Origin: an uncultured Pirellulaceae bacterium
GTDB taxonomy: Bacteria > Planctomycetota > Planctomycetia > Pirellulales > Pirellulaceae
Reading direction: 5' to 3'
Length of the DNA stretch: 50,091 bases
NCBI GenBank assembly: GCA_938091115.1
Contig: CALKNI010000077.1
Span: 1 to 50,091 of the forward strand
Shown: in pieces, positions 20,885 to 25,761 of the stretch
How positions within the stretch are numbered: position 1 is the stretch's first letter
Layout of the letters: each line of letters opens with the position of its first letter
Translations under genes and position numbers: made by a program
The notes under the pieces: generated by a model
Told to the model about the DNA's origin: nothing
The model's input: the letters and a program-made list of their open reading frames with translations, nothing else
The model's database searches: none

Positions 20885-23044
20885 ATGACGACCAAAACTA
20901 GAGAACTTGTTAAATCCGGTAGCAACTCTGCCTCATTAGTAACTCAGACTCCACTTCTCGATGCAGGAGATGTCGAAACAAAGCGTCAAGAGATCCTGGA
21001 TTATTTTCATGATACTTTTACGCTCTATGAGAGTCTCTTCGAATGTCTCGCTAATGATGAATCTTTTTATGCCCGAGCCAATCCATTACGCCATCCATTG
21101 ATTTTTTATTATGGCCACACTGCCGTATTTTTTATCAACAAACTTAATGTGGCAAACTTGATTGACCAACGAATCGATCCACACATTGAATCGACACTTG
21201 CGGTCGGGGTTGATGAGATGTCTTGGGACGACTTAAACGAACAAAATTATGATTGGCCGACCCCTGCTCGAGTGAAAGCTTATCGAGATCAGACCCGAGC
21301 CGTCGTCGACAACTTTATTCGAGAGTGCGATTTCAGTTTGCCAATTGAATGGAATAGTCCAATGTGGATTATTTTGATGGGGATTGAGCACGAGCGAATT
21401 CACTTGGAGACAACTGCTGTCCTGATACGAGAGCTGCCTCTCGAGAGAGTCGTTTCGCATCCCGTTTGGAGCAACATTTGTAGAGAAAGTGGCGTGCCTC
21501 CGGAGAACGAATTAATAGCCGTTGAGGGTGGTCAAGTTGAAATGGGTAAGTCAAAAAGTAACTCACTTTATGGCTGGGATCTTGAATACGGTTATGCTTC
21601 GGAAACAGTCAAGGATTTTCGTGCTTCGAAGTTTTTAGTTTCCAATCAGGAGTTCCTTCAGTTTGTCGAATCTGGCGGCTATCAAAACAGCGATTTCTGG
21701 ACGACCGAAGGTTGGAGTTGGGCTGAATTTCGGCGAGCCGAGCATCCAGTGTTTTGGGTTAAAGAGGGAGAGAACTTTAAGTATCGCTCAATGTTGGAAG
21801 TGATCGACATGCCGTGGGACTGGCCTGCAGAAATCAATTACCTTGAGGCAAAGGCTTTCTGTAACTGGAAGTCGGAAGCAACGGGAAAAAATATTCGAAT
21901 GCCTACCGAAGCAGAGTGGTATAAGCTTCGGGAAAGGGTCGACACAGACCAACCTTACTGGGGATCAGCCCCCGGTAATCTCAATCTTGAACATGAGATG
22001 TCTCCATGTCCCGTAAATCGACATGAGTTCGACAGCGGCTTTTTCGACGTGATTGGAAATGTATGGCAATGGACCGAGACGCCGATCGATGGGTACGATG
22101 GATTTGAAGTTCATCCTACTTACGATGATTTTTCGACACCAACGTTTGACGGGAATCACAACTTGTTCAAAGGCGGTTGTTGGATTTCAACCGGTAACTA
22201 CGCAATCAAAGATGCAAGGTATGCGTTCCGACGGCATTTCTTTCAACACTCTGGATTGAGGTATGTTGAAGCCGAGCCTCTCCCGGAGCTTGAGGTTAGC
22301 GTCTATGAGACCGATCAAATGGTTTCCAATTACATCGAGTTTCATTATGGCAAAGAGAATCTGAATCTTCCTAACTTCCCTGTGGCTTGCATTAAAGAAG
22401 TGTCTAAGCGACTGGAAGGCCAGTCGACCCAGCGAGCACTTGATATTGGCTGTGCGACGGCAAGGTCATCGTTTGAGTTAGCGAAAATATTTGACCATGT
22501 TGACGCCGTTGATTTATCCGTGCGTTTGATAGAGCCCCCCGCCAATTTGCAGAGGGCCGGTCGTCAACGCTACGTGTGTGTTGAAGAAGGGGAACTGACA
22601 CTATTTAATGAAATCCAACTGGACGATTATGAAGGCTACAAGGAAGTCAAAGACAAGATCGCTTTCATGCAAGGTGATGCTTGTAACTTGGTTGAAAAAT
22701 TCAATGATTACGACTTAGTGTTTGCAGGAAATCTGATAGATCGACTTTATGACCCAGTTATGTTCCTTGAGTCAATCAAAAGCCGGATTCGGCCGGGTGG
22801 ATTATTAGTATTGGTTTCACCCTACACTTGGTCAGAGGAGCATACGCCTCGTGATAAGTGGCTGGGTGGGTTTAAAGCCGCCACTGGAGAATCGTTCACG
22901 GCTATTGAGGGAATTGAAAAAGTGCTCGGCCCTGAATTTAAAATGGTTGGTGATCCAGTCGACTTGCCCTTCGCGCTCCGCGAAACGAAGCGGAAGTTCC
23001 AATACGGAGTGTCTGAGTTGACGGCGTGGCAGAAAGAAGCGTAG
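20885..23044 (+). CDS. ovoA: 5-histidylcysteine sulfoxide synthase / 4-mercaptohistidine N-methyltransferase
   Basis: Ovothiol A biosynthesis enzyme, cytoplasmic, 719 residues, the full three-domain architecture. A DinB-like helical domain carries the iron site: HERIHLE (H169, H173, E175; the HX3HXE motif) and an upstream His in YYGHTAVF (H78). The FGE-sulfatase-like domain spans about 205-465 with MPTEAEWYKL, FFDVIGNVWQWTE, FKGGCWIS and YAFRRHFFQHSGLRY. The C-terminal S-adenosylmethionine methyltransferase begins near 475 with the motif LDIGCATARSSFELA (519-533). The enzyme joins cysteine and histidine with oxygen to a sulfoxide; the methyltransferase would later methylate the imidazole nitrogen. 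The PLP-dependent lyase OvoB, which cuts the sulfoxide, is not in the window. The two following genes are co-directional, with gaps of 140 and 51 bases. The FGE-like domain should not be mistaken for a sulfatase maturase. Confidence 0.95.
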   Translation: MTTKTRELVKSGSNSASLVTQTPLLDAGDVETKRQEILDYFHDTFTLYESLFECLANDESFYARANPLRHPLIFYYGHTAVFFINKLNVANLIDQRIDPHIESTLAVGVDEMSWDDLNEQNYDWPTPARVKAYRDQTRAVVDNFIRECDFSLPIEWNSPMWIILMGIEHERIHLETTAVLIRELPLERVVSHPVWSNICRESGVPPENELIAVEGGQVEMGKSKSNSLYGWDLEYGYASETVKDFRASKFLVSNQEFLQFVESGGYQNSDFWTTEGWSWAEFRRAEHPVFWVKEGENFKYRSMLEVIDMPWDWPAEINYLEAKAFCNWKSEATGKNIRMPTEAEWYKLRERVDTDQPYWGSAPGNLNLEHEMSPCPVNRHEFDSGFFDVIGNVWQWTETPIDGYDGFEVHPTYDDFSTPTFDGNHNLFKGGCWISTGNYAIKDARYAFRRHFFQHSGLRYVEAEPLPELEVSVYETDQMVSNYIEFHYGKENLNLPNFPVACIKEVSKRLEGQSTQRALDIGCATARSSFELAKIFDHVDAVDLSVRLIEPPANLQRAGRQRYVCVEEGELTLFNEIQLDDYEGYKEVKDKIAFMQGDACNLVEKFNDYDLVFAGNLIDRLYDPVMFLESIKSRIRPGGLLVLVSPYTWSEEHTPRDKWLGGFKAATGESFTAIEGIEKVLGPEFKMVGDPVDLPFALRETKRKFQYGVSELTAWQKEA

Positions 23045-23184
23045 ATGCTTGCTTGGTTGGTTGTTTTTTGACCAGCGATAGACGGACGACATCTTCCGAT
23101 TGGAAGGTACGCCGGTATGATAATAGACCTCGATTGTTCTAATCGCGAAATTACCGCTCGATCGCTATAGCCGACCAAATTTTC

Positions 23185-24351
23185 ATGACCATTGAAACCA
23201 ACTTGCATTTCAATTTTCTCTCGGAGTTGTACGCTGGAGATTTTTCTTCGGCCTGCCTGCTTTCTGAGTATCCGTCGTCCAATAGCGATGAAACTTTTTT
23301 TCAAAACAAAACCAAGTATCTCATTCACGATCCGTTTCCACCGCCCCCTCGCGAGCTGTTAAAAATTCTTGGGCCGCATCATTTGATGTGTGGTTGGGGA
23401 CAGCATGTAGAAATCGTTTCCGAGGTTGCGCTTCCGTCCATTCTTCTGGATCACTGGACATCGGTATTTGGTGCAGAGGGGATGCCTAGGTGGCGATTGT
23501 TTGACGCCTCTGATAAGGATTCAAAATTCATTACCCTGTTTCCTCATCAATCAATATCTGCTGAGCAACAAGTTTTGGATCCGGATGTTAATTACGCGCT
23601 TCACTCCAAAGAAGTGATTGAAAAAATTGATTGCCCGCAAGCGAAAGTTTTCGACTCTGTCACGCCGCCTTGTATTGTGAAACTCAGCCATGGTTACGCA
23701 GGTCTTGGGAATTTTTTGATTCGAAGTGAATCTGATGAAGCGGAAATGCGAAAGCAGTTGATCCAGTACGGAGGCGAAGCTGTTCTAGTTATCAATTCAG
23801 TCATTGAAAATATTGTTGGTGACTTTGGAGTTCAATTCTATCTTCGCTCAGACGGCTCCATCGTATGGCTTGGGTTTACTGAGCAGCACTTCAATTCGAA
23901 CAAAAAATGGTGTGGTGGTACGTTCTCGGTTGACTTGCAGGAACAGTTGCTTCCCGAGCTTTGTAAAATGATTGAGCCGGCGGGAAAGTACCTTCATGAG
24001 TGCGGATATGTCGGGGTGGTTGGAATTGATATTTTGCGAGATGGTTCGAACAACATGTTCCTCGTCGACGTGAATCCCCGCCTGACTGGCATCACGCCGT
24101 TTCTGATGGCATCGCGGATTTTTGCTCGCGAAGGTTTGAACGAAGGCATTTATCAGGCAAGTTGTCGATTTAAAGGAAGTTTCACTCAGTTAATTAGCCA
24201 GGCAGAATCGATCAAGGGTGCGAGAGTCGTAGTGCATTCGGCATTTGAGTCGGGTGACGATGGAGATATAACGACGGTCTGTCATCTTTCGGTTACTACT
24301 GATTCGCAGGACCGCAACCAACAGGTTTTGCAACAAATCCTTCAGTCCTAG
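23185..24351 (+). CDS. ATP-grasp carboxylate-amine ligase-like protein next to ovoA
   Basis: 388 residues, predicted soluble. The ATP-grasp core is visible: the nucleotide-binding hairpin CIVKLSHGYAGLGNFLIR (163-180), the central VVGIDIL (D282), and the Mg-binding strand MFLVDVNPRLTG (D295, N297). The N-terminal 150 residues form the pre-ATP-grasp domain. ATP-grasp enzymes of this kind activate a carboxylate as acyl phosphate and join it to an amine or thiol. Position between ovoA (140 bases upstream) and a MATE exporter (51 bases downstream) suggests that ovothiol, or a precursor with free carboxyl and amine, is a substrate; this is inference. I know of no characterised ovothiol ligase. Product could be an amide with an amino acid, or a dipeptide. 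Confidence 0.85.
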   Translation: MTIETNLHFNFLSELYAGDFSSACLLSEYPSSNSDETFFQNKTKYLIHDPFPPPPRELLKILGPHHLMCGWGQHVEIVSEVALPSILLDHWTSVFGAEGMPRWRLFDASDKDSKFITLFPHQSISAEQQVLDPDVNYALHSKEVIEKIDCPQAKVFDSVTPPCIVKLSHGYAGLGNFLIRSESDEAEMRKQLIQYGGEAVLVINSVIENIVGDFGVQFYLRSDGSIVWLGFTEQHFNSNKKWCGGTFSVDLQEQLLPELCKMIEPAGKYLHECGYVGVVGIDILRDGSNNMFLVDVNPRLTGITPFLMASRIFAREGLNEGIYQASCRFKGSFTQLISQAESIKGARVVVHSAFESGDDGDITTVCHLSVTTDSQDRNQQVLQQILQS

Positions 24352-24402
24352 AAAGCCTCCTAATTCGCTCGATTAAACTAACGCGGGGTATCCAGTCGTC
24401 CT

Positions 24403-25761
24403 TTGAAAACTAAGTCACTTACATCGGGTCCCATTCTTGCGCACGTCAGGGATCTGGCGCTGCCGTCGAGCATTGGTTTGTTTTTTCAAACCATGTATAA
24501 CGTCGTCGATTCTTTTTACGCCGGTGAGATATCAACGGCGGCTTTGGCTGCGCTGGGACTCAGCTTTCCAGTTTTCCTTCTGATCATTGCCACCAGTGGT
24601 GGTTTATCCCGCGGTGCTTCAGCCTTGATTGCCAATGCAATTGGAAGCCAAGAAGTGGACAAGCAACGCTGTTACATCGCGCAAAGTATTTCGCTGGGTT
24701 TAGTGGTATCGATGGTGATGACCGTTACCGGTGTTTTTGTTGCGAAACCCCTGTTCCAGTTACTTGGAGGGACGGGAGAATGCCTCGCAATGGCGATGGC
24801 TTATATGATCCCAATTTTTGTGGGCTCTGTGTTTTTTATCATCACAAGTTTGAGCAATGCGATTCTAATCGCATCGGGTGACAGTAAGACGTTTAGCAAA
24901 GTTTTAGTGGTTGGTTTTTTTCTCAACCTGATTCTTGATCCATGGTTCTTATACGGTGGTTACGGTCTCCCCGCGATGGGGATTACTGGAATTGCATTGG
25001 CGACAGTCGTCATTCAAATTGGGAGCAGTGTGTTCATGGTTTCGACGGTGGTTCGTCGGAGATTGTTGGCACTCAATTCATGGCAGGTGTTGGTCCCAGA
25101 TTTGAAAACTTATCGAGAGATTGCCGAGCAGGCATTGCCGGCCAGTTTTAATATTATGTCGGTCGCACTCGGCTTTTTTGTAACGACCTATTTTCTAAAA
25201 AGTTTTGGAGATCAGGCCGTTGCAGCTTTTGGCGTTACAACTCGAATCGAACAAATCGGCCTGCTTTCCACAATGGGTTTGTACGCGGCAATCATGGCTC
25301 TGGTTGGGCAAAACAATGGAGCAGGGAATTTCGATCGAGTTCGCCATACGATGCGAGTTGCTAATCGAATTGGATTTATTTTGAGTCTAGTGACCTCAGG
25401 GATAATCTATATCTTTGCCCGGCGGTTGATGCAGGTTTTTACCGACGATTCCGGAGTTATCGAAATTGGAGTCGAGTGTTTGCATATCATCATGCTGGTT
25501 CAATGGTCTTATGTTATGACCTCAACGCACTTGGCCATGTTGCAGGCGACAAAGAGACCGCGTTACGGATTCTTTGAATCAGTGCTTAGAAAGGTTCTGT
25601 TGCCGCTTCCGTTTTTCTGCGTGTTTGTGTGGGCCTGGCAATTTGAGATTGCTGCGGTCTGGTGGATTATCTCGGGGACCAATGTGTTCATGACGGTGAT
25701 CACTGTCATATATGCACAATGGGTGTTGAGACATTTAGGAAGCGCAAAGATGGGAGGGTAG
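24403..25761 (+). CDS. MATE-family multidrug/metabolite exporter
   Basis: 452 residues with about twelve hydrophobic segments and the typical repeat of two six-helix bundles. The N-terminal half contains LALPSSIGLFFQTMYNVVDSF (helix 1) and AALGLSFPVFLLI; the second half contains QALPASFNIMSVALGFF and FGVTTRIEQIGLL. MATE proteins export cationic or neutral organic molecules in exchange for Na+ or H+. It starts with TTG at 24403; no in-frame ATG occurs before helix 1, and the ribosome binding site is weak. It closes the ovoA/ATP-grasp cassette, so it probably exports the product of these two enzymes or a related thiol; that role is inference. Confidence 0.92.
   Translation: MKTKSLTSGPILAHVRDLALPSSIGLFFQTMYNVVDSFYAGEISTAALAALGLSFPVFLLIIATSGGLSRGASALIANAIGSQEVDKQRCYIAQSISLGLVVSMVMTVTGVFVAKPLFQLLGGTGECLAMAMAYMIPIFVGSVFFIITSLSNAILIASGDSKTFSKVLVVGFFLNLILDPWFLYGGYGLPAMGITGIALATVVIQIGSSVFMVSTVVRRRLLALNSWQVLVPDLKTYREIAEQALPASFNIMSVALGFFVTTYFLKSFGDQAVAAFGVTTRIEQIGLLSTMGLYAAIMALVGQNNGAGNFDRVRHTMRVANRIGFILSLVTSGIIYIFARRLMQVFTDDSGVIEIGVECLHIIMLVQWSYVMTSTHLAMLQATKRPRYGFFESVLRKVLLPLPFFCVFVWAWQFEIAAVWWIISGTNVFMTVITVIYAQWVLRHLGSAKMGG

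Follow-up and report, generated by a model that had tools for sequence, protein, structure and literature searches.

The DNA analysed here, a stretch of 50,091 nucleotides from an uncultured Pirellulaceae bacterium (hereafter the window), carries three consecutive genes on the forward strand. The first, ovoA (positions 20885–23044; 719 amino acids (aa), ATG start), is predicted to encode a sulfoxide synthase, consisting of a DinB-like iron domain and an FGE-like domain, fused to a 5-thiohistidine N-methyltransferase. It is followed after 140 bases by a gene for an ATP-grasp amino-acid-ligase-like protein (23185–24351; 388 aa, ATG start), a predicted ligase of ovothiol or 5-thiohistidine; we denote this gene and its product OLG. 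After a further 51 bases lies a gene for a MATE family efflux transporter (24403–25761; 452 aa, TTG start), the predicted exporter of the product. Open reading frames (ORFs) and domain models confirmed the initial annotation, which had described a complete ovoA, an intact ATP-grasp gene and a MATE gene on one strand with these two gaps. Pattern scans for promoters and terminators gave no excess over shuffled controls, and the proposal that the three genes form one transcription unit rests on their strand, spacing and conservation. A defence role is unsupported, as PADLOC yielded only a methyltransferase cross-match to OvoA.

The window OvoA scores 666 bits against TIGR04344 (curated cut-off 400) and 297 bits against TIGR04345 (curated cut-off 170); its scores to the EgtB and SenA models are much lower than those to the OvoA models, and it falls far below the EgtB cut-off. 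A domain-model scan located the DinB, FGE-like and methyltransferase domains. The iron site, HERIHLE (H169, H173 and E175; HX3HXE), does not vary among the OvoAs compared. The two curated models, the iron motif and the fused methyltransferase together assign the protein to OvoA at the sequence level, and its methyltransferase domain is intact. Among named relatives, the closest OvoA is that of a Mariniblastus metagenome-assembled genome (MAG), at 92% identity, and the window very likely comes from a Mariniblastus or a near relative.

OLG matches PF02655 at 34.7 bits (gathering score 23.2). Residues K142 and K166, the glycine-rich loop H169–G175, D282 and the D295-x-N297-x-R299 motif are invariant over 24 homologues, and from general knowledge of ATP-grasp enzymes we take K142, K166, H169–G175, D282, D295, N297 and R299 to bind ATP and Mg. 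H65, H66, C69, W71, W228, W242, C366 and H367 are residues specific to the OLG clade. The best NCBIfam match for all 13 OLG members is NF047900 (LdmS), in every case far below the cut-off; the window OLG scores 44 bits against an equivalog cut-off of 475, which leaves it outside the LdmS equivalog. A broader profile (A3) retrieves LdmS (7r8p) at an E value of 7.6e-22. An early structural model of OLG, based on 13 close sequences, was of low quality (pLDDT 68.7), and we used instead an AlphaFold2 model built from A3, with cyanobacterial homologues added and row L041 left out of the alignment (pLDDT 92, pTM 0.91). Both Foldseek and VIA-align 2 ranked LdmS (7r8q) first for this model (Z 32.9, rmsd 2.9, 347 residues). 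Next came 3wvr/3wvq, 8ynd (an ATP-grasp peptide ligase from Streptomyces) and BesA 8yi6 (Z 24 to 26), with purine-type ATP-grasps scoring lower (Z 21 or less).

We take Protein Data Bank entries 7r8p and 7r8q to be LdmS, the L-aspartate--L-methionine ligase of Staphylococcus (SAOUHSC_02373; NF047900). LdmS shares with OLG the whole-length fold, the ATP-grasp residues and a similar size, and it acts on a sulfur amino acid. However, the two proteins are only about 17% identical, the conserved pocket sequence of LdmS differs (for example, VDVNPRLTG instead of IDLNFRQNG) and no linkage of LdmS to ovoA is known. BesA, 8ynd and 3wvr/3wvq, which are amide-forming amino-acid ligases of secondary metabolism or relatives of such enzymes, likewise resemble OLG in fold, but they are 12 to 16% identical to it and belong to actinobacterial pathways with other substrates. 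The predicted fold and the nucleotide- and Mg-binding residues place OLG in the ATP-grasp superfamily, and an active amino-acid or peptide ligase is the best-supported prediction of its class. Because its fold and its closest characterized relatives are those of amino-acid and peptide ligases, OLG would be suited to coupling substrates via a carboxylate and an amine.

A genome-wide search for OvoA returned 80 loci from many phyla. One OvoA clade comprises 13 loci, all from Pirellulaceae and the window among them, and in each of these OLG lies directly downstream of ovoA. Identity to the window across these loci is 69–92% for OvoA and 52–87% for OLG; outside this OvoA range falls one contig (L143) that carries just the C-terminal part of the protein (63% identity). 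The gap between the two genes is 3 to 288 bases in most loci and 1,086 bases in one (L132), where it contains an ORF with a PEP-CTERM motif. When neighbouring proteins within several kilobases of the 13 loci were clustered, the only widely common families were OvoA (13 loci), OLG (13) and MATE (8), the next family being present in 4. As the flanking families are not conserved while ovoA and OLG occur together in every locus, the pair has been kept together as its surroundings changed. The initial annotation had made its reading depend on the neighbours of ovoA in related genomes, and the predicted neighbours are there, with OLG at 13 of 13 clade loci and an adjoining MATE gene at 8. Furthermore, the distances between OvoAs co-vary with those between OLGs (Mantel r 0.85, p 0.0001). 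Purifying selection acts on OLG (dN 0.079, dS 0.81, window versus L128). The arrangement of ovoA with an ATP-grasp gene, as judged from these comparisons, is no chance event.

A maximum-likelihood tree of 43 OvoAs groups the OLG-linked proteins in one clade (support 100/99), which is nested among proteobacterial OvoAs and separate from the second OvoA type of planctomycetes. This topology fits a single transfer of ovoA into Pirellulaceae and a single gain of OLG, followed by co-inheritance. The OvoAs of the OLG clade share no invariant residue that OLG-less OvoAs lack.

The distribution of OLG follows that of this OvoA type. A family scan found OvoA in 16 of 149 Pirellulaceae genomes; a profile (A1) built from the 13 OLG proteins of ovoA-linked loci detected OLG in 9 of the 149, exactly those with this OvoA type directly upstream, and in none of the 7 Pirellulaceae genomes with the other OvoA type (54–57% identical). 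At the level of the order (296 genomes) only already known ovoA–OLG pairs were recovered, and at the level of the phylum (392 genomes) the sole full match was the window's own genome. A search of 299 Pseudomonadota genomes, run without a positive control, returned no OLG match at all, and the ORFs of the non-planctomycete OvoA loci included no OLG homologue. Viral contigs, scanned both with a single OLG protein and with the profile, contained no relative, and plasmids contained only two distant cyanobacterial homologues, neither of them near ovoA. In cyanobacteria, 12 of 214 genomes contain a remote subfamily (about 25% identity along its length) that is not linked to ovoA. The initial annotation had also named homologues of the ligase occurring mainly without ovoA, in unrelated pathways, as a result that would count against it: in the phylum, order and family sets every orthologue detected came with ovoA, Pseudomonadota gave no match, and only the cyanobacterial subfamily lies away from ovoA. 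As this subfamily has no linked ovoA, the fold family to which OLG belongs is not tied to thiohistidines. OLG itself appears to be a new, lineage-restricted family within the known class of ATP-grasp amino-acid ligases, in a new setting.

The cyanobacterial relatives have associations of their own. Their LdmS-like ATP-grasp subfamily, one member of which (L172) scores 106 bits against LdmS, adjoins a gene for an isoaspartyl peptidase/asparaginase in 3–4 of 14 loci (L173, L177, L041 and L042, the last a fragment), which suggests a role in β-aspartyl dipeptide metabolism. Elsewhere in 4 of the 12 cyanobacterial genomes with the OLG-like subfamily there is a stand-alone OvoA-type domain, one of which was checked with a curated model. 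At L184 (1501–2778) and at L185–L188, ORFs of about 450 aa encode an OvoA-type sulfoxide synthase that stands alone; the query matches them only up to residue 461–481, and they apparently have no methyltransferase domain. The L184 ORF, the only one of the five covered by the scan, passes TIGR04344 at 595 bits.

The window MATE protein matches PF01554 above the cut-off in two stretches and TIGR00797 at 218 bits (cut-off 147). The MATE gene adjoins OLG in 8 of the 13 loci, is located elsewhere in the genome in 2 cases (G517 and G417) and was not found in 3 (G394, G427 and G543); an orthologue is present in 8 of the 11 OLG genomes searched. Among 14 OLG-less relatives, no MATE protein exceeded 38% identity. 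The transporter is thus tied to ovoA more loosely than OLG is, and is dispensable in the lineage. From its adjacency in 8 of 13 loci, we predict that it exports an ovothiol conjugate; as it is absent from 3 of the 11 OLG genomes searched, export is the weaker half of our reading.

We consider it fairly probable that the three genes make up a small thiol pathway, in which OLG forms an amide on ovothiol or 5-thiohistidine and the MATE transporter exports the product in most lineages. By family membership, OvoA would act as a sulfoxide synthase that links cysteine to the imidazole of histidine, an unlinked broad-specificity β-lyase (OvoB) would free 5-thiohistidine and the methyltransferase domain of OvoA would then yield ovothiol A, in keeping with the described ovothiol A pathway of OvoA, β-lyase and methyltransferase domain (PMC12631010). 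OLG would use ATP and Mg to activate a carboxylate as an acyl-phosphate and couple the acyl group to ovothiol or 5-thiohistidine; as the methyltransferase domain of the window OvoA is intact, ovothiol is as likely a substrate as 5-thiohistidine. The acceptor would most likely be the α-amine of the thiohistidine and the donor a small, perhaps acidic, amino acid, giving an aminoacyl-ovothiol dipeptide, similar to carnosine, anserine or glutathione, which the MATE transporter would export in most of the lineage. We infer these substrates, the direction of ligation and export for a locus in which the gene set, its linkage, the intact catalytic residues and the ligase fold are observed. The initial annotation had proposed an ovothiol ligase and an exporter, and this proposal is partly supported. 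Linkage and an amide-ligase fold are consistent with the former, and the latter is weakened by the absence of the MATE gene from 3 of 11 genomes.

The preference for the thiohistidine α-amine as acceptor comes from LdmS, which ligates aspartate to methionine, and BesA, which ligates glutamate to propargylglycine: in both enzymes the carboxylate comes from the acidic amino acid and the amine from its partner, an unusual or sulfur amino acid. At about 17% identity, the transfer of substrates from LdmS to OLG is weak. The roles could also be reversed, with OLG activating the carboxylate of ovothiol and joining it to the amine of another small molecule (ovothiolyl-X); the linkage to ovoA and the ligase fold apply equally to such a reaction, and ATP-grasp ligases can activate either partner, but the precedent of LdmS and BesA runs the other way, and we regard ovothiol as donor as rather unlikely.

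Adjacency is not chemistry, and OLG and the MATE transporter might make and export a dipeptide unrelated to ovothiol, with no more than shared regulation or inheritance connecting them to ovoA, for example as part of a common stress response. LdmS, 8ynd, BesA and the cyanobacterial homologues all function without ovoA. On the other hand, OLG orthologues never occur without ovoA in the searched genomes, and the pair stays joined as its flanks change, whereas a separate pathway should sometimes split from ovoA, as the MATE gene does; we judge this explanation unlikely. Quite improbable, finally, is an EgtA-like role upstream of OvoA, in which OLG would supply a cysteine-containing dipeptide in place of free cysteine: in ergothioneine biosynthesis EgtB does use γ-Glu-Cys made by a ligase, as with mycobacterial EgtA and EgtB, and ovoA and OLG adjoin, but the lack of any OvoA position specific to the OLG clade gives no sign of an altered donor site, OvoA scores far over the OvoA cut-off and far under that of EgtB, and OLG comes after ovoA, not before it.

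The amide ligation of ovothiol or 5-thiohistidine that we favour has a functional parallel in carnosine synthase, an ATP-grasp enzyme that acylates the α-amine of histidine with β-alanine; this is an animal enzyme that is not recovered by sequence with OLG, and the likeness is functional only. A second parallel is 5THNAT, the 5-thiohistidine N-acetyltransferase of Proteiniphilum, which was first predicted from the genes near ovoA and then confirmed in vitro; it is in competition with the methyltransferase and does not use ovothiol as a substrate (PMC12631010). Besides 5THNAT, OvoA is the sole known enzyme that recognizes any 5-thiohistidine derivative (PMC12631010). Like the proposed function of OLG, that of 5THNAT is a tailoring of 5-thiohistidine inferred from the genes around ovoA, and 5THNAT derivatizes the α-amine. 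The two differ in that 5THNAT has a GNAT fold, uses acetyl-CoA and occurs in Bacteroidota, whereas OLG is a predicted ATP-dependent ligase of planctomycetes that accompanies an OvoA whose methyltransferase domain is intact. A scan of OvoA and its neighbours, five window proteins in all, detected no GNAT domain, and the gene after ovoA encodes an ATP-grasp protein.

The initial annotation knew of no described ovothiol ligase, and our literature searches on ovothiol ligases and on planctomycete ovothiol gave none. We suggest, tentatively and at somewhat less than even odds, that OLG is the first peptide ligase of ovothiol (5-thiohistidine), and that its aminoacyl-ovothiol product, secreted as a low-molecular-weight thiol, is the planctomycete equivalent of glutathione or carnosine, with a thiohistidine as its base. 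Bacterial ovothiol functions are almost unknown, and enzymes that use 5-thiohistidine have been described as the missing key (PMC12631010). A dedicated ligase locked to ovoA across a lineage would make ovothiol a building block for larger thiols. The linkage of ovoA and OLG, with an exporter gene frequently following, suggests that a marine planctomycete lineage attaches ovothiol to another amino acid to give an undescribed thiol compound. It would also make the ovoA–OLG–MATE set a small three-gene system testable in E. coli, and would point to new thiol metabolites in marine bacteria.

Other ovoA loci also have neighbours of potential interest. In Bauldia sp., an ORF of 278 aa (L060, 8094–8930) that overlaps the ovoA stop codon looked ATP-grasp-like by eye, but Pfam, NCBIfam, a Protein Data Bank search and profile comparison left it unconfirmed as a convergent ligase; were it genuine, it would represent another ligase beside ovoA, independent of OLG. 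In a Caulobacterales MAG, ovoA is immediately preceded by a same-strand gene for a class V aminotransferase (L051, 4631–5848), which could be a clustered OvoB-type β-lyase. In the cyanobacterium Symploca sp., a cytochrome P450 gene (L058, 4161–5594) directly follows a full-length ovoA and is a possible thiohistidine-tailoring gene.
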